DNA of 30,408 bases from Candidatus Poribacteria bacterium (GCA_016215705.1 JACRIR010000018.1:1-30408); one strand, 5' to 3'; counted from the stretch's first letter, positions 1,521 to 21,015 are shown. Program-made: numbers and translations. The notes: generated by a model from the sequence alone, not told the origin.

Positions 1521-3140
1521 TTACTTAGCATGGGCTGCAAGGGGATGGCCTCTTATCAGTTCTATGACGGTCGGATTCAGATAGTGTTTTGCTATCCATT
1601 CTATTACGGGAACGCAGACGGCGTCTCCAAAGCCAAATAGCGCCTGATTGAGGGGAGCGGATATCCTGAAGTCATCGGCGCCCATGAGCCGCGCGCATTC
1701 TCGCGGAGTCAGGAATCTCACAAAGAATTTGCCTTTGCCGGCTTTGAAAAGGATTTGCCGCGCGCTGCCGCCTCGCGGAGTTCTCAGGCAGCCCGCTATG
1801 CCGTCGGTTCTGAGTTCGGCCATAGACTTGCCCTTACGGATGCGCCGGAATACAGTTCCATACGACCATCTCGCGCCGTTGATCATATCCTCTGCGACAG
1901 CGCTATGACGGGGACTCATCTGATTCAGAAGGTATTCCGCGCGACGAGTGTTCCACCATTCTGGCGCGTTTTCGGGAAGGTCTTCGAGTACATCTTCGAG
2001 AGTTTTGGTAGTCTGTGGAGGCGCTGGAAGATCTCTCAGCCGCCACCGAATCTCCGGGTGGTGAAATATGAAATCAGCCAGCATTTTTAGCCTTACCCTG
2101 CTTTCGTAAAAGCGAGGCGTCTCGCAAACGTCATAAGAACTTTCGAGCCTATTGAGTATTCCAACAACGAACAACCGTTGCCTGCTTTGAGGCACAAAGC
2201 TTCCCGCGTCGAGAATAAACGCATCGACGTCGTAGCCCAGATTGTTCAGGGCAAGCAATGCGTCCTTGAAATCATGGCCGTTGGCTGACGTGAGAAATCC
2301 GGTTACGTTCTCAAGGAGAACAAGAGGCGGTCTCCGTTTCCGCATTTCTTCAAGGATGCGGATAAAGCCCCAGAAAGCAGAAGATTGCTTGCCGCCTAAT
2401 CCCTTTCTTGCTCCCGCGAGAGAGAGGTCGTTGCAGGGAAAAGAAGCTGTCGCCAGCGTCACCGTGGGTATTCGACGAGATGGGACATCGTGGATATCGC
2501 CGAGGTGATGGTGTCTGTCAGCATCCTCAAAGTGAGTCTTGTACATTTCGTATTTTTGAGGATCGATGTCGTTTGCGTACGTTATGGACCAGCCTTGATT
2601 CTCAAGCGCCAGCCGCATGAGACCGATTCCGGCGAAGAATTCGGCGAACGTCCTTTGAGGAAGAACTGAATACGGGCCTGGTTTTGCGCCATTGTTTGCG
2701 ACCTCTAGAGCCATTCTGACACAACCCTCCATATCCTTACGTATGTCGCTTTCCCAAAATCTGAGAACCTGCCAACCTTCACGCAAGAGCGCGGCCGTGG
2801 CCCTGCAATCTCGCTCCATATTTTTGCGGATTTTCGCGAGCCAGTAATCTCTCGATTTGGTTTTCTGGAATTGTTCTTCCAGTGAAGCGAGCTTGCGACG
2901 ACTCCATTGGCCGCCATGCCAGAAATCTCCGTCGATAAATATCGCCAGGCGCCGGGATGGTAGAACAATATCCGGCTTTCCGGCAAGCTTTGACGGGCAG
3001 ACCCTATAGCGAAGACCATTGGAAGCAAGAGCCCTGCGAAAAGCGACTTCAGGGATCGTATCGCGGGAGCGCACCTTCCGCATAATTGCGGAGATGTCCC
3101 TATGCGTTCTTCTTTTTGGGACAGACTTCTTGATTGGCAT
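1521..3140 (-). CDS. Fused Vsr mismatch endonuclease / DNA (cytosine-5) methyltransferase
   Basis: Two enzymes share one 539-residue frame. Residues about 15-140 are a Vsr endonuclease, which nicks beside T:G mismatches left by deaminated 5-methylcytosine. It shows RSRDTIPEVAFRRAL, GKPDIVLPSRRLAIFIDGDF with candidate catalytic D57, and WHG at 74-76. Residues about 163-530 are a C5-cytosine methyltransferase. Motif I is FAEFFAGIGLMRLALE, motif IV is FPCNDLSLAG with nucleophile C236, motif VI is LLENV with E277, motif VIII is QSRQR at 318-322, motif IX is RFLTPRECARLMG, and motif X is FGFGDAVCVPV. The target-recognition region lies roughly at 333-473. An in-frame GTG start at 3221 would add 27 residues that resemble neither family, so the ATG at 3140 is preferred; neither start has a strong ribosome-binding site. 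It leads the operon with the DUF4928 nuclease. The recognition sequence cannot be read from the protein. Confidence 0.9.
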   Translation of the reverse strand: MPIKKSVPKRRTHRDISAIMRKVRSRDTIPEVAFRRALASNGLRYRVCPSKLAGKPDIVLPSRRLAIFIDGDFWHGGQWSRRKLASLEEQFQKTKSRDYWLAKIRKNMERDCRATAALLREGWQVLRFWESDIRKDMEGCVRMALEVANNGAKPGPYSVLPQRTFAEFFAGIGLMRLALENQGWSITYANDIDPQKYEMYKTHFEDADRHHHLGDIHDVPSRRIPTVTLATASFPCNDLSLAGARKGLGGKQSSAFWGFIRILEEMRKRRPPLVLLENVTGFLTSANGHDFKDALLALNNLGYDVDAFILDAGSFVPQSRQRLFVVGILNRLESSYDVCETPRFYESRVRLKMLADFIFHHPEIRWRLRDLPAPPQTTKTLEDVLEDLPENAPEWWNTRRAEYLLNQMSPRHSAVAEDMINGARWSYGTVFRRIRKGKSMAELRTDGIAGCLRTPRGGSARQILFKAGKGKFFVRFLTPRECARLMGADDFRISAPLNQALFGFGDAVCVPVIEWIAKHYLNPTVIELIRGHPLAAHAK

Positions 3141-3221
3141 AGTCTTGTGGCGCACTGCAAGTCGAATGATAACCCAGACACTGTGTTTATGATCAACGGG
3201 CTTCCACTGGACATGAAGCAC

Positions 3222-14151: not shown

Positions 14152-16164
14152 ATGTATTCCCTCGGCGTCGATACAGGCGGAACTTTCACTGATTTCGTTC
14201 TCAGTGACGGTCGCCGAATCAGAGTATACAAGATTCCGTCCACGCCGCAGAATCCCGCTGCTGCTTTCCTCAAGGGTGTCCGGGAGCTTTGCCATCCCGC
14301 TGCGCCGCTGTTTGTCACCCACGGTTCTACAGTCGCAACGAACGCGCTCCTTGAAAGAAAAGGGGCGCGCGTCGCTCTTGTCACAACCGCTGGGTTTGAG
14401 AGTGTCCTGGAAATAGGCCGCCAGAACAGACCATCCCTGTATGACTTTGAGGTTGAGAAACCGCCTCCGCTCGTATCGCGTGAGAATATTTTCGGAGTTC
14501 ATGAGCGCGCCTTGTATGATGGAACAATTCTGAATGAGCCTGAAAAACGAGAAATTGAGGCGATTGCGGAGGCAATAATAGCTCGACACTGCGAGTCAGT
14601 TGCAATCTGCTTCCTGCATTCATATGCGAATCCGAAGAACGAGCGGCTGGTCGAAGAACTGATTGAGAGGTCGATGAGAGAGCGTTGCGGAAATTCCCCC
14701 TTGCCAATCTCCGTTTCGCATCGGGTGCTTCCCGAATACCGCGAATATGAACGCTTCAGCACGACTACGGTGAACGCGTACGTTTCTCCAAAGATGAGCG
14801 TATATCTCGGCTCGATAGAAAAAGATCTGCCGGAGGGCGTTCGCTTGCGAGTGATGCAGTCCAACGGCGGCTCCATGTCTGCTTCCGCCGCCCGCAAAGC
14901 GGCCGCGCAAACAATCCTCTCCGGACCTGCCGGCGGAGTAATCGGCGCTTTCGAAGTGGCGCGCACGGCAGGTTTTGAAAAGGTGATAACACTCGATATG
15001 GGTGGCACCTCAACGGATGTGGGCCTGTGCGACGGCAGTGTATCGCTGCGAACTCGTTCAACTGTGGCCGGCTGCCCTATTGGAATCCCGGTGGTTGATA
15101 TTCACACAGTGGGCGCCGGAGGAGGGTCGATTGCCTGGCTGGATTCGGCGGGGTCGCTGCGTGTCGGCCCTCAAAGCGCGGGGGCAGAGCCGGGACCCGT
15201 CTGCTACGGGCAGGGGAGAAGCTTGACCGTCACAGACGCGAATCTGTGCCTGGGACGATTGTGCGCGAGCCGCTTTCTCGGCGGGAGAATAACGCTTGAC
15301 TTTGACAGAGCAAATGAGCATATGTTAAAATTTGCCAATGACTTAGGAATCCCTGCTGACATGGCGGCTGAGGGTATTCTCAGGGTGGCGAACGCAACAA
15401 TGGAGCGGGCCATCCGCGTCATATCAGTCGAACGGGGACACGATCCGCGCAACTTTTCACTTGTCGCCTTCGGTGGCGCGGGCCCAATGCATGCATGTGA
15501 CCTTGCCCGCGCTCTCTGTATCCCAAGGATAGTCATCCCGCGCAATGCAGGTGTTCTATCTGCCTTCGGGCTACTTATAGCAGATGTCAGCCGGGACTTC
15601 TCGAAAACGGTTCTCTTGAGAGCGGAGGATACTTCTATTCCTCAACTCGACACTCTCTTCTCTCCGCTTGAAGAGCAAGCACTCGAGGAGCTGACGCGAG
15701 AAGGTTTCTCACGGGAGGAAATCATACTGGAGCGGCGTCTCGATGCGCGTTATGTCGGCCAATCGTATGAAGTGACGATTCCCGCCGGGGGCGACTTTCT
15801 TTCGTGCTTTCATTCGGAGCATTTGCGGCTGTATGGCCACTCGAATGGGGCGTGGCCGGTCGAGATCGTCAATGTGAGACTTGCAGCCGCAGGTCGCGTC
15901 GAGAAGCCGCAGTTCTCTCCGGTAGAGGAGACTCGCGACTCGTTTTGCAGTGCGGTCGTCGGAAAAAGCCGGATGGTTTTCGGTGACTTGAAGGTTGACG
16001 CTCCCATTTATGACAGGTCGGAACTGCACGGAGGCAACCGCTTTCGCGGCCCCGCTTTGGTTGTGGAGATGAGCGCGACCACCGTCGTCACTCCGGAGTT
16101 TGAAGCCGGGGTGGACTCTTATGGCAACATCATTATGACTCGTTCTGCGGGAGAATTTCAATGA
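14152..16164 (+). CDS. hyuA: Hydantoinase/5-oxoprolinase family subunit A
   Basis: A 670-residue ATP-dependent ring-opening amidohydrolase subunit of the HyuA/oxoprolinase type. The ASKHA phosphate loop opens the protein, VDTGGTFTDFVL at 6-17. The VTHGSTVATNALLERKG segment is typical, and a second nucleotide motif, LDMGGTSTDVGL, starts near 281. The THTVGAGGGSI-like glycine stretch, GAEPGPVCYGQG and FGGAGPMHACDLA are all present, so the gene is full length. Family members hydrolyse hydantoins, N-methylhydantoin, 5-oxoproline or carboxylate acetone-like substrates (AcxA), always with a HyuB partner. The partner here is at 16980, separated by an HD gene and an inserted repeat. It is 6 nt from nfi and overlaps the HD gene by 4 nt. 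The substrate cannot be chosen from sequence. Confidence 0.92.
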   Translation: MYSLGVDTGGTFTDFVLSDGRRIRVYKIPSTPQNPAAAFLKGVRELCHPAAPLFVTHGSTVATNALLERKGARVALVTTAGFESVLEIGRQNRPSLYDFEVEKPPPLVSRENIFGVHERALYDGTILNEPEKREIEAIAEAIIARHCESVAICFLHSYANPKNERLVEELIERSMRERCGNSPLPISVSHRVLPEYREYERFSTTTVNAYVSPKMSVYLGSIEKDLPEGVRLRVMQSNGGSMSASAARKAAAQTILSGPAGGVIGAFEVARTAGFEKVITLDMGGTSTDVGLCDGSVSLRTRSTVAGCPIGIPVVDIHTVGAGGGSIAWLDSAGSLRVGPQSAGAEPGPVCYGQGRSLTVTDANLCLGRLCASRFLGGRITLDFDRANEHMLKFANDLGIPADMAAEGILRVANATMERAIRVISVERGHDPRNFSLVAFGGAGPMHACDLARALCIPRIVIPRNAGVLSAFGLLIADVSRDFSKTVLLRAEDTSIPQLDTLFSPLEEQALEELTREGFSREEIILERRLDARYVGQSYEVTIPAGGDFLSCFHSEHLRLYGHSNGAWPVEIVNVRLAAAGRVEKPQFSPVEETRDSFCSAVVGKSRMVFGDLKVDAPIYDRSELHGGNRFRGPALVVEMSATTVVTPEFEAGVDSYGNIIMTRSAGEFQ

Positions 16165-16706
16165 ATCGAGAAGAGGCGCTTGAGTTGTTGAATGAACACG
16201 TGAAGACTAAGAATCTGAACAAACATATGCTCGCCGTGGAGGCTTGCATGCGTTCGCTCGCCGGCCGACTCGGAGAGAATCCGGATGAATGGGCGATCGC
16301 GGGTCTGCTGCATGACCTCGATTACGATCAGACGGTCAACGATTTCCCCAGGCATGGGTTCGTGACCGAGGAGCTATTGAAGGACAAGGGAATATCGCCA
16401 AAGATAATCGACGCCATCAAGGCCCATACGGGACACACTCCCATAGTGAACAATATGGACCTTGCTCTCTATGCGATCGACCCGGTCACAGGGCTGATTG
16501 TCGCAGCGGGCCTCATGCATCCGACAAAAAAACTCGCGAATGTAGATGTTCAATTCATCATGAAACGTTTCAAAGAAAAGCGGTTCGCTGCGGGCGCCAA
16601 CCGAGAGCAGATTCGGAAATGTGAAGGCTTGGGCCTGGCGCTCGAGGAATTTGTCGGCATATGCCTCGCGGCTATGCAGGGTATAGCCGGCGAATTGGGA
16701 CTCTAG
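16161..16706 (+). CDS. HD-domain phosphohydrolase-like protein
   Basis: A 181-residue HD-superfamily protein. Candidate metal ligands are H22, the HD pair H51-D52 in GLLHDLDYD, H65 in FPRHGF, H89/H92 in AHTGH, and D107 in YAIDPVTGL. This order matches small HDIG-type hydrolases acting on nucleotide or phosphate-containing substrates. The product is about the usual size for a single HD domain. The ATG overlaps the hyuA stop (ATGA), so it is translationally coupled to hydantoinase A. Its stop codon TAG at 16704-16706 lies inside the left end of the inverted-repeat element that follows, so the extreme C-terminus may have been reshaped by the insertion. The substrate is unknown. Confidence 0.82.
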   Translation: MNREEALELLNEHVKTKNLNKHMLAVEACMRSLAGRLGENPDEWAIAGLLHDLDYDQTVNDFPRHGFVTEELLKDKGISPKIIDAIKAHTGHTPIVNNMDLALYAIDPVTGLIVAAGLMHPTKKLANVDVQFIMKRFKEKRFAAGANREQIRKCEGLGLALEEFVGICLAAMQGIAGELGL

Positions 16707-16979: not shown

Positions 16980-18536
16980 ATGGTTGACGCTATCACACTA
17001 GAAATCTTCAAGAACCTGTTCGGTTCCGTTGCCGAAGAGATGGGGGTGGTGCTCCAGCGCACCGGCTTTTCACCCAACATCAAAGAGCGGCTGGACTTCT
17101 CATGCGCTGTTTTTGACCAGAAAGCCGACATGGTTGCTCAGGCCGCGCATATCCCCGTTCATTTAGGCTCCATGCCCCTATCAGTGCAAAGCGCAGTGCA
17201 GGACGTTCCAATGGAACCCGGCGACGTCGCAATATTGAACGATCCGTACCGAGGCGGGACGCATCTGCCGGATGTGACAATGGTAGCCCCGGTGTTTCTC
17301 GGCGAACCACGTCCCACTTTCTACGTTGCAAGCCGGGCCCATCACGCAGATGTAGGCGGTTCGACGCCGGGTTCGATGCCCCTCTCAACGTCGATTTTTC
17401 AGGAGGGTCTGAGAATACCGCCGCTGAAGATCATGGCGAAAGGGAAACCCGTGCCGGATGTCCTTTCGATGTTTCTCGCAAATGTGAGAACTCCGGAAGA
17501 GAGAGAGGGCGACATTTCCGCGCAACTTGCCGCCTGCGCAACCGGCGGTAAGAGGCTTGCCGAAATGACTGCGCGTTACGGACTGGATGAACTGAAGAGT
17601 CATGCCGCCGCGTTGCAGGATTATTCCGAGACCCTTATGCGACAATGTATTTCGCGGATACCGTCCGGCAGATACGGTTTTCAGGATTTTATGGATGACG
17701 ACGGCGTAACTGACGAGAAAATCCCTATTGTCGTTACGATAACCGTCGAGCATGATAGCGCCACCATCGACTTTTCGGGAACGGCGGCGCAGGTTAAGGG
17801 GTGTGTAAACGCCGTTCTTGCGATCACCGTTTCTTGCGTATTCTATGTCTTCCGATGCCTTGCCGGAGAGAATATCCCTTCTAACTCAGGCTGCATGAGA
17901 CCGATAACCGTGTCGGCGCCGTTAGGCACGCTTGTAAATGCGCTCCCACCCGCTGCCGTCGCAGGCGGCAACGTCGAAACTTCGCAGCGAATAGTGGACG
18001 TCCTGCTCGGAGCGCTGGCGAAGGCGCTTCCGCGTCAAATCCCGGCCGCAAGTTGTGGAAGCATGAACAATGTGTCAATCGGCGGTTACGACTGCATACG
18101 GCGTCGTCCCTTTGCGTACTATGAGACACTAGCGGGCGGGATGGGCGCGCGGCCCGACAAAGACGGCGTCAGCGCGGTCCACTCCCACATGACAAACACC
18201 ATGAATACTCCCGTCGAGGTAATTGAAAATGCCTATCCGCTGAGAGTTTTGTGCTACAATATCAGGCAAGACTCAGGCGGATCGGGAGTGCGCCGGGGGG
18301 GAGACGGCTTAATAAGAGAATACGAATTGCTCTGCGACTCAAGCGTTTCGATTCTGTCGGAGAGGCGTCGCTACGCTCCTTACGGACTTGACGGAGGTAA
18401 GGACGGCCGGAGGGGCGAGAACCATCTGTTCAGGAACGGCGAGTGGAAGAGTCTGCCGTCGAAGGCAAATCTCGATTGCAGAAAAGGAGAGCGTTTGCGC
18501 ATTATGACTCCTGGCGGGGGCGGATATGGCCGATAG
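16980..18536 (+). CDS. hyuB: Hydantoinase/5-oxoprolinase family subunit B
   Basis: A 518-residue HyuB-type subunit, the partner of HyuA in ATP-dependent opening of cyclic amide or imide rings. The opening VDAITLEIFKN followed by EEMGVVLQRTGFSPNIKER is the family signature. NDPYRGGTHLPDVT, SRAHHADVGGSTPGSM, GNVETSQRIVD and the final MTPGGGGYG are also present. Family alignment favours the ATG at 16980; an in-frame ATG at 16965 would add MACSS, and neither has a good ribosome-binding site. About 270 bp, including a MITE-like repeat, separate it from the HD gene, so it may rely on readthrough or its own promoter. Its last 11 nt overlap the VWA/FHA protein gene. Confidence 0.91.
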   Translation: MVDAITLEIFKNLFGSVAEEMGVVLQRTGFSPNIKERLDFSCAVFDQKADMVAQAAHIPVHLGSMPLSVQSAVQDVPMEPGDVAILNDPYRGGTHLPDVTMVAPVFLGEPRPTFYVASRAHHADVGGSTPGSMPLSTSIFQEGLRIPPLKIMAKGKPVPDVLSMFLANVRTPEEREGDISAQLAACATGGKRLAEMTARYGLDELKSHAAALQDYSETLMRQCISRIPSGRYGFQDFMDDDGVTDEKIPIVVTITVEHDSATIDFSGTAAQVKGCVNAVLAITVSCVFYVFRCLAGENIPSNSGCMRPITVSAPLGTLVNALPPAAVAGGNVETSQRIVDVLLGALAKALPRQIPAASCGSMNNVSIGGYDCIRRRPFAYYETLAGGMGARPDKDGVSAVHSHMTNTMNTPVEVIENAYPLRVLCYNIRQDSGGSGVRRGGDGLIREYELLCDSSVSILSERRRYAPYGLDGGKDGRRGENHLFRNGEWKSLPSKANLDCRKGERLRIMTPGGGGYGR

Positions 18537-21015
18537 GAAGAAAAGTCGATACACGGGAACAGTGACACTGCTGCGGTTCATTGTCTTCGTTGGCTTGTTC
18601 TTGGGAATAGGTCTGTCCAGCCCGTTTGCCGGCGCATGGGAAGACAACCGGACACTGATATTCGTCATCGACTCGTCTGGGAACATGTCCCCATATCTGT
18701 CCAGCATCAAAGGAGTGATTCTGACCTGTGCGGACCAATCGAGGGAAGGGGATTATCTTGGAATTGTCGCATGTTCTGACATGGCAAAGCTGCTGCTGAG
18801 CAAGAAAATCGGCGGGCCGAGAGATCAGAAGTCCATAAGCATGATGCTTGACGCAATGACCGCGGATGGCGCGACAGCCGATGTCGCAGGCGGAATAGTC
18901 CGGGCGTTGGAAGAAACCGCGACACTCAAACGCAAGGGCGACAAGAACGTCAAGGGCATTGTCGTTGTCTCGGCATCCGAATCGACCGGGAACGAAAGTG
19001 TCGCCGAGGCGCTTGAGAAGGCGTTGCGCGATGCGTCAAAATCTGTTGACAACAACGAATGGTATATCCAGTACTGCTATCTCAATGGCAAGCGCAACGC
19101 GCAAGTCGAGAGCTTTGTGTCCTCTGTCGGCGGACTCTCCTATGATGTCAGCGCGCTACAGTCCGGTGACGCGACGGAAACGATTGCGGAACTCTATAAA
19201 ATCGTCTCTACACCGGAAGAACTCTGCGCGGTGCGCGTGCTCGACCTTAAGAATACGGTCCTGGCTAAAGGGGCTGAGGGCGGGGATTGGGCGCCGCTCA
19301 AGACCGGCGCCGGCGTCCCGGCCCAAACACTTCTAAAAGTCGCAACAGAGTCGCGCGCCGTCCTTGCGCTCGGCGACTATGGTGAGATCGGGCTCGACCC
19401 CGAGGCAGACCTCGCGTTGATAAGTATGAAGAACGACCCTCTCAAACATCGGGCTATTTTTCGTTTCTCCTTGAATACTGGTTCCATGTGGCTGCATTTT
19501 GGCGAGAAACCGGCAAGTACGCTGCAAGTAGACGCGAACGGAGGGCGGCTGTTGGTGACGGGCGAAGCGGCGACAGTGAGCCGTTTGACGGAAACCGGTG
19601 ACCTTCAAGTGAACTCTTTTTGTGATTCGTTGTCGGTCGCCGTTGCGGGAAAGGATGCTGAGCCGATTAACGTCGCGTTGAACCAGTCGACGCGCCTCGG
19701 CGGCGGCCAAATACTTGCGCAGGCCGACCCCTCAGAGGCTTCCGTAATCGAGGAATGGAAGTCATGGAGCAAAGCGCTTGTCGGAAAAACGTCTCTGGCC
19801 GTGCTCGATTTTAGTATCCCCGAGGTCGTGTTTCCTCACAAGACAATAAAGCTCGGCCCCGTGAGATCGGGCGGCTCAGAGGCTGCGACATTCACAATTC
19901 AGATTGTGGGAGCGGCTGACGCATTAAAGGTGAAAATGGCGGTGGACACCTCGATAGACCTGCCCGAGGGCCTCTCTTTGTCGACTGGCGTCGTCGACGG
20001 CGACAGACCGGACAGGAAAGTCTTGGCGGTGAAAGTTGACGGCACGCAGGGTTTTCGCGCGACCAGAAGAGAGAAGCACGAAGGACTCCTCAAGATTGTG
20101 CCCGCTCCCGATTCCGGGATCGTTTTCAAAACAATACCGGTTCAACTCACGATAACAACAAAGGGAGCCTTGGTTCCTCCCCGGATTCTGGCTTTGGGAA
20201 TATTCGCGGTTCTGGCAGGGGTATGCGCGGCAGGGATCAGCTTTGCGCGCCGGGCCAGGAAGGCGGAGCGCCCAAGGCCGCACCGCGTCATAGGACGTCT
20301 GATTGCGGTCAACGATCCGACGGGAGGCCGCGTAGGCACCATAAACCTGGAGGAGATAAGCACAAAGTCGAGCCGCCTTTCGCTGGTGATTGGCAGCAAC
20401 AGAACTGCGGAAGTAAGATTGAAACATGCTTCAGTTAGTCCCGATCACTGTACGCTGGGGGCGAATCTGGCGGGTGATCGCCTGCTGACGTACATCGAGC
20501 CGATTGGCTCCGCCAAAGTGAGCGTCAACGGCGAGGCTATCCGCTCAAGCACGTGTCTCAACGATGGGGCCAAAATCGAAATCGGCGATTTTATCTACCA
20601 GTTCGAGGATACCCAATTCTACAAGAAAGTCGAAGTTGTCTATAAGAACGGAAAACAGCTGGCCGGCATCCTCGATGTAGCCGGCATGGACGCGGAAGGC
20701 TTCAAAATAAGTCCGACGGACGCCGTATCAACCAGCGAACGGGCGCGCGTGAAATTCTCGGATATACGCTCGGTCACTTTTCATCGCAGGGCCATCGATA
20801 TGTTCGCGCAAAAGTCACGGTCGGGAGTGAAACCCGATACCATGAAGCGCGTGGAATTGATGTTCAAGAAGGGGGCCACTATTAGCGGATATGTCCAGCG
20901 GGAATACACCGAGGGACGCCATCGCTACATTGAACTCCTGCCGCTCGAATTGGAAAGCATTATCGACTATATAGTCGTTGATTATTCATCCGTGGTGGAG
21001 AAGAAGTTCACCTAA
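18526..21015 (+). CDS. Membrane protein with VWA, FecR-like, FHA-like and duplicated C-terminal domains
   Basis: An 829-residue protein. Residues 13-37 form a signal sequence or anchor ending AGA. Residues 43-225 resemble a von Willebrand A domain, but the MIDAS is DSSGN (49-53), with Asn instead of the last Ser. Residues about 270-400 resemble a FecR domain (FSLNTGSMWLHFG, then DANGGRLLVTGEA). One transmembrane helix lies at about 552-573, followed by a basic stop-transfer RRARK. The predicted cytoplasmic part has an FHA-like domain at about 614-695 (LVIGSNRTAEVRLKHASVSPDHC, then VSVNGEAI), whose usual phosphothreonine-binding Arg after the first Gly is Ser. The C-terminus has two similar units, VEVVYKNGKQLAGIL (702-716) and VELMFKKGATISGYV (776-790), like DUF6982-type beta domains. 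The gene starts inside hyuB (11-nt overlap). It is probably an envelope sensor or scaffold; the function is unknown. Confidence 0.8.
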   Translation: MADRKKSRYTGTVTLLRFIVFVGLFLGIGLSSPFAGAWEDNRTLIFVIDSSGNMSPYLSSIKGVILTCADQSREGDYLGIVACSDMAKLLLSKKIGGPRDQKSISMMLDAMTADGATADVAGGIVRALEETATLKRKGDKNVKGIVVVSASESTGNESVAEALEKALRDASKSVDNNEWYIQYCYLNGKRNAQVESFVSSVGGLSYDVSALQSGDATETIAELYKIVSTPEELCAVRVLDLKNTVLAKGAEGGDWAPLKTGAGVPAQTLLKVATESRAVLALGDYGEIGLDPEADLALISMKNDPLKHRAIFRFSLNTGSMWLHFGEKPASTLQVDANGGRLLVTGEAATVSRLTETGDLQVNSFCDSLSVAVAGKDAEPINVALNQSTRLGGGQILAQADPSEASVIEEWKSWSKALVGKTSLAVLDFSIPEVVFPHKTIKLGPVRSGGSEAATFTIQIVGAADALKVKMAVDTSIDLPEGLSLSTGVVDGDRPDRKVLAVKVDGTQGFRATRREKHEGLLKIVPAPDSGIVFKTIPVQLTITTKGALVPPRILALGIFAVLAGVCAAGISFARRARKAERPRPHRVIGRLIAVNDPTGGRVGTINLEEISTKSSRLSLVIGSNRTAEVRLKHASVSPDHCTLGANLAGDRLLTYIEPIGSAKVSVNGEAIRSSTCLNDGAKIEIGDFIYQFEDTQFYKKVEVVYKNGKQLAGILDVAGMDAEGFKISPTDAVSTSERARVKFSDIRSVTFHRRAIDMFAQKSRSGVKPDTMKRVELMFKKGATISGYVQREYTEGRHRYIELLPLELESIIDYIVVDYSSVVEKKFT

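Follow-up and report, generated by a model that had tools for sequence, protein, structure and literature searches.

A lineage-expanded candidate receptor or scaffold family joining exported VWA domains to cytoplasmic FHA and DUF6982 domains in Candidatus Abyssubacteria

Results

Domain organization of the protein encoded at 18526-21015

The DNA analysed here (the window; 30,408 nucleotides, GCA_016215705.1 JACRIR010000018.1:1-30408) makes up contig C209 in a metagenome-assembled genome (MAG) of 5.47 Mb from Candidatus Abyssubacteria, a deep-subsurface bacterium. An open reading frame (ORF) lying between hyuB and galK is a complete gene for an 829-amino-acid (aa) protein, in which an exported VWA domain, a FecR-like module and a beta-rich region are followed by one transmembrane (TM) helix, an FHA domain and DUF6982 (Table 1). 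As the initial annotation of the window had proposed, this ORF begins, with an ATG, inside hyuB, whose stop codon is at 18534-18536, and the resulting overlap is also present in both syntenic orthologs.

Profile searches, which the initial annotation had named as able to refute its VWA and FHA assignments, support both domains above the Pfam curated cut-offs, with VWA_2 (PF13519) at 29.2 vs 27 bits, PF00092 at 25.2 vs 23.8 bits and FHA (PF00498) at 28.0 vs 20.7 bits. FecR (PF04773) scored below its cut-off of 24 bits, both in the whole protein (19.3 bits) and in the isolated region (22.2 bits, E 2e-4), and so did DUF6982 (PF22478; 18.2 vs 24.5 bits). Both assignments are nevertheless secure because relatives match: the best isolated FecR region in the clade of the window protein reached 3.2e-9, and DUF6982 was matched by all 22 members of the protein family described below (best 7.6e-18), with a full two-unit alignment to the above-cut-off members. 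The two similar C-terminal units noticed initially are indeed homologous to each other (hhalign probability 95.8%, P 7e-9, two negative controls run); judged from these alignments, they together form the two tandem units of the known family DUF6982. The region of residues 428-548 had no consistent Pfam match, and a PDB sequence search with it gave insignificant ribosomal matches only (best E 0.37). Hydropathy and a positive-inside signal, seven Lys/Arg within the 15 residues after the helix, bear out the single membrane crossing with VWA outside and FHA inside.

AlphaFold2 was run on the full protein with two alignment rows and gave a predicted local distance difference test score (pLDDT) of 41, with the best values in the FecR zone (local about 60-74). 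The top four Foldseek matches of this full-length model were FecR-type anti-sigma regulators. A FecR-type fold is predicted for the module at residues 265-414, which aligned with PupR (6ovk; Z 12.6, root-mean-square deviation 3.5, 138 residues; VIA-align) and with the FecR-type regulator BDI_1681 (4m0n; Z 12.2). With the same tool, residues 39-237 of the model matched VWA domains at Z of about 11 (TFIIH p34, Z 11.9; ITIH1, Z 10.9), and ArnB was a further match for this fold (8s05, Z 9.2). Residues 602-700 matched the KIF1A FHA domain at Z 8.6, which falls in the middling range of the alignment tool, so that the FHA assignment rests on the profile. DUF6982 modelled alone gave a pLDDT of 33, and thus no fold can be stated for it; PDB profile searches with DUF6982 and with the FecR region found no match.

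Table 1. Coordinates of the features of the ORF and of the kinase-linked paralogous loci. Positions without a locus prefix refer to the window.
Feature	Position	Strand	Basis or remark
Complete gene, 829 aa, exported VWA / FecR-like / beta region / TM / FHA / DUF6982	18526..21015	+	Syntenic orthologs L047 and L048
Overlap with the hyuB 3' end, 11 bp	18526..18536	+	Shared with L047 and L048
Hydrophobic N-terminal stretch, residues 12-30, probably an export signal, with AGA site after it	18559..18615	+	Hydropathy 2.21; cleavage inferred
VWA domain, about residues 39-235; of the MIDAS ligands, D49 and S51 kept	18640..19230	+	Pfam VWA_2, fold matches, residue table
FecR-like module, about residues 265-414	19318..19767	+	Pfam FecR on isolated region; PupR fold match
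Unnamed beta-rich exported region, residues 428-548, family-wide (GP...G ... LPEG)	19807..20169	+	Family alignments
Single transmembrane helix, residues 554-572, positive-inside on C-terminal side	20185..20241	+	Hydropathy 2.40, 7 K/R after
Cytoplasmic FHA domain, about residues 590-697	20293..20616	+	Pfam FHA, KIF1A FHA fold match, residue table
DUF6982 unit 1, residues 702-754	20629..20787	+	Pfam DUF6982 at 700-799; hhalign unit 1 to unit 2
DUF6982 unit 2, residues 776-828	20851..21009	+	hhalign; alignment with stand-alone DUF6982 proteins
VWA-FHA-DUF6982 protein, PQQ-propeller Ser/Thr kinase and alkaline phosphatase in conserved order	L054:5859-9043, L061:11278-14674, L067:5164-8514
CHASE2-cyclase-like-Ser/Thr kinase protein (960 aa), then FHA-GAF-adenylate cyclase protein, directly after paralog L059	L059:11299-15841

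A family of 22 proteins with a conserved inside and a variable outside

The phylum was sampled by three genomes, all of one taxonomic family and one of them Candidatus Abyssubacteria SURF_17 (QZKI01000040.1), and every result on the protein family derives from these three MAGs. The protein family comprises 22 members (10, 8 and 4 paralogs per genome), of which DUF6982 matched 22, VWA_2 20 and FHA 18, and shares the VWA-beta-TM-FHA-DUF6982 plan; by hydropathy, most members have an N-terminal segment and one internal helix followed by FHA and DUF6982. The window gene is single-copy in each genome, with syntenic orthologs L047 in genome G002 (52% identity) and L048 in genome G001 (49%). The tree resolved well-supported orthogroups, in which the window orthogroup joins L049:12965 and L059 in a five-member clade (100/99), and the FecR-like insertion is limited to these five of the 22 members. 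In the protein at L052:8400-10658 the helix, FHA and DUF6982 are kept, with the VWA domain lost and an N-terminal part of another, unassigned kind in its place.

Between genera, identity within the window orthogroup was 67-77% for FHA and 64-75% for DUF6982, 48-57% for VWA and 27-33% for the FecR region. Such constraint inside and fast change outside are the pattern expected of a receptor, or of a scaffold, with a fixed inner and a changing outer partner. Differences at third codon positions lie far above those at first and second positions (for FHA, window vs L047, 0.61 vs 0.18 and 0.11), which indicates that the window gene is maintained.

Residue losses in the MIDAS and the FHA phosphate site

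The metal ion-dependent adhesion site (MIDAS; DxSxS...T...D) of the window VWA domain is incomplete, as initially annotated: D49 and S51 are kept, and N53, A118 and A150 occupy the other three ligand positions. The MIDAS is complete in 18 of the 22 family members, and the same three ligands are lost in all three members of the window orthogroup; the impairment is therefore both specific and inherited. Since D49 and S51 persist and the domain is conserved between genera, the loss looks like an inherited switch to metal-free binding.

In the FHA domain, Ser624 stands at the position of the usual Arg, whereas Ser638, His641 and Asn668 are kept. The missing Arg had been noted from the outset, but on comparison of the sequences it is typical of the family and not peculiar to this protein: Arg is present in 3/22 members, the Ser of SxxH in 5/22 and both in a single one, Gly and Asn being present in all. 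The Arg carriers include both orthologs of the window protein, one of which, L047, has Arg and Ser. The family FHA is non-canonical and probably phosphate-independent. EssC FHA domains lacking a phosphothreonine site have been reported to bind the EssB pseudokinase domain (PMC11217815), and by analogy the safest reading is that the family FHA serves mainly as a protein-contact fold.

Ser/Thr kinase genes beside paralogs

No kinase was found by profile scans of the proteins in the window, in agreement with the initial annotation; the genome as a whole, where it had suggested looking, has 13 Ser/Thr kinases above the cut-off plus one more counted with neighbours in frame; the sister genomes have 19 and 20. 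The next gene encodes a Ser/Thr kinase in four of the 22 family members, which belong to two of the eight orthogroups, against a chance expectation of 0.09 of 22 (orthogroup-level P between 4e-4 and 4e-3). In one orthogroup this holds for all three members (L054, L061 and L067), where a kinase with a PQQ-type propeller comes next and an alkaline phosphatase follows; the fourth, L059, overlaps a CHASE2-kinase gene, after which an FHA-GAF-cyclase gene is found. This adjacency supports a signalling role of the family, although it names no partner for the window protein. Degradation of the FHA site is greatest in the orthogroup with a kinase link in each of the three genomes (GT/GT/GV with V/I/I), as would suit docking that needs no phosphothreonine.

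Gene neighbourhood

The window, L047 and L048 share a gene order that runs from tldD/E-like genes through endonuclease V (a label assigned from sequence), hyuA, an HD-domain protein, hyuB, the ORF and galK on to shikimate dehydrogenase; only in G002 is one Gfo/Idh/MocA-like gene inserted between L047 and galK. The HD-domain protein (16161-16706, + strand) is kept in all three genomes. Neither a FecI-type sigma factor nor a TonB-dependent receptor was found among the scanned neighbours of the ORF, and the window neighbourhood has no secretion or pilus genes. Elsewhere in the window, a Vsr mismatch endonuclease (residues 43-107) and a C5 DNA methyltransferase (residues 191-546) are encoded as one fusion protein by a single ORF (1521-3221, - strand). 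This ORF adjoins a DUF4928 / PADLOC type II restriction enzyme gene (807-1511, - strand), and the two make up a restriction-modification locus in which vsr and dcm are fused.

Distribution outside the phylum

The full chain was found in none of 383 genomes outside the phylum; this absence is provisional, the two best candidates having been scored per genome. No model above cut-off in NCBIfam or PADLOC spans the chain, and a defence role of the window protein was rejected, there being no PADLOC match. DUF6982 occurs in 28 of the 383 genomes, mostly in short stand-alone proteins, and relatives were not found in viral contigs by the test used. In one genome, it is also carried by an ExeA-like AAA ATPase (L057:9322-11379, sub-cut-off) and a B-box zinc finger/TPR protein (L056:9661-10719). 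No publication on DUF6982 came up in a literature search, and the terms kinase, FHA, von Willebrand and signal are absent from the paper describing Abyssubacteria (PMC6121073). Eight of the ten genomes of another bacterial phylum encode a VWA-TM-FHA protein that lacks DUF6982. The chain, initially called novel, is thus an unusual combination without a known full-length model, but it belongs to one of 22 paralogs and its core plan is known; the FecR/DUF6982 chain with MIDAS loss is a variant of that plan. VWA domains also occur in a VIT-VWA-ankyrin-repeat protein (L106:1010-3454) of an Abyssubacteria genome, and the protein at L107:1089-3503 resembles it at its start.

Discussion

We propose, with confidence that is evenly balanced, that the window protein belongs, as a single-copy member, to a lineage-expanded family of receptors or scaffolds that are bitopic (single-pass). 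The exported VWA domain, FecR-like module and beta region would bind an envelope or surface partner as the presumed ligand, the VWA domain of the window orthogroup gripping it with no metal in the MIDAS and a second contact surface possibly being provided by the FecR-like module. The single helix would then transmit the contact state inward, where the non-canonical FHA domain would hold a cytoplasmic partner through protein contact and without reading phosphothreonine, and the two DUF6982 units would be the surface for output or assembly. For two or more sister orthogroups this partner is probably the Ser/Thr kinase of the next gene; that of the window protein would be encoded elsewhere and may be one of the 13-14 kinases of the genome. 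A transmembrane relay, as first suggested for this protein, is therefore plausible, supported by the four paralogs with a kinase gene next, whereas the missing Arg counts against its phosphothreonine version. More tentatively, and with considerable doubt, the family may be an undescribed group of receptors that couples an exported VWA domain, with or without FecR, to Hanks-type kinases via phosphate-independent FHA and DUF6982, in which the window orthogroup, within the FecR-carrying clade, would have moved from metal-dependent to MIDAS-free VWA binding.

Several observations weigh against the proposed receptor or scaffold model. The FHA Arg of both orthologs, together with the Ser of L047, makes phospho-binding possible in the window orthogroup; the ORF has metabolic neighbours (hyuA, HD, hyuB and galK) and no kinase, phosphatase or sigma factor beside it; and the full-length fold model is poor. 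Part of this would suit a structural envelope scaffold, in which VWA, FecR-like, FHA and DUF6982 act as contact modules bridging envelope and cytoplasm with no signal passed, comparable to the FHA-type folds of YscD in type III and EssC in type VIIb secretion systems (T7SSb). Yop-YscD_cpl also matches the FHA domain in 15/22 members (the window protein stays below that cut-off, 22.4 vs 33.2), the phosphate-site residues are not conserved, the MIDAS is lost in the window orthogroup and the neighbourhood is metabolic without signalling genes. However, two paralogous orthogroups directly precede Ser/Thr kinase genes, one of them followed by a CHASE2-kinase gene and then an FHA-GAF-cyclase gene, and the window neighbourhood contains no secretion or pilus genes, so that a pure scaffold appears a possible but rather improbable explanation.

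A classical relay of the ArnA/ArnB/ArnC kind, with a Hanks-type kinase phosphorylating a Thr that the FHA domain then reads, is unlikely. The genome has Ser/Thr kinases, kinase genes adjoin paralogs and the window orthologs keep the Arg, but the window protein has Ser in its place, 19/22 members lack it, only one of the 22 combines Arg with Ser, and the orthogroup most consistently linked to kinases has the most degraded site. The scarcity of Arg counts against phosphothreonine reading as the working principle of the family. Cell-surface signalling of the FecR/PupR type, whereby the FecR-like module would take a signal from a TonB-dependent receptor and release a sigma factor, is very improbable: the module itself is confirmed by profile and by the PupR fold match, but neither of these partners was found among the scanned neighbours, the cytoplasmic side consists of FHA-DUF6982 and no anti-sigma domain, and only 5/22 members have the module. 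Decay of this paralog into a pseudogene, as the three missing MIDAS ligands and the missing FHA Arg might suggest, is hardly credible and was rejected, since the ORF is open and syntenic in three genera, third-position differences dominate and FHA and DUF6982 are strongly conserved.

With this family, an uncultured deep-subsurface phylum gains a candidate outside-to-inside receptor family with clear orthogroups, which is also a natural experiment in MIDAS loss. It offers a concrete test case for the docking of FHA domains that lack a phosphate site on bacterial Ser/Thr kinases in settings other than type VII secretion. For the uncharacterised DUF6982, it supplies a repeated setting, the end of membrane proteins of signalling type.

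Among known systems, the VWA-TM-FHA proteins of the other phylum (such as P0002 in genome G018, 630 aa) share the exported VWA domain, the one TM helix and the cytoplasmic FHA domain. In contrast to the window protein, P0002 has an intact MIDAS and, preceded by a second degenerate FHA-like stretch, a canonical FHA motif (IGRGEG...VSRRH...STNGT); moreover, proteins of this type have neither a FecR module nor DUF6982, give one match per genome and neighbour another FHA protein. The ArnA/ArnB/ArnC system of Sulfolobus likewise combines VWA, FHA and a Ser/Thr kinase into a single regulatory unit (PMC12852372); here, kinase genes lie beside paralogs only. However, the Arn VWA and FHA domains are separate proteins, ArnB has a MIDAS metal and the FHA domain reads phosphothreonine (PMC12852372), whereas in the window family both domains are fused across the membrane and the phosphothreonine-reading residues are mostly absent. 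EssC/EssB of T7SSb offers a parallel for an FHA domain without the phosphothreonine site, which in EssC contacts a kinase-fold domain without phosphorylation, but EssC is a secretion ATPase with an N-terminal FHA domain and no VWA or FecR (PMC11217815). The FecR/PupR anti-sigma regulators resemble the window protein in their FecR-like exported module and differ from it in the anti-sigma domain, in place of which FHA-DUF6982 is found inside, the FecR module being confined to one clade of the family. Finally, stand-alone DUF6982 proteins (PF22478) have the same two tandem units of about 55-60 aa, mostly as separate short proteins, while in the window protein these units form the C-terminal end of a receptor-like chain.

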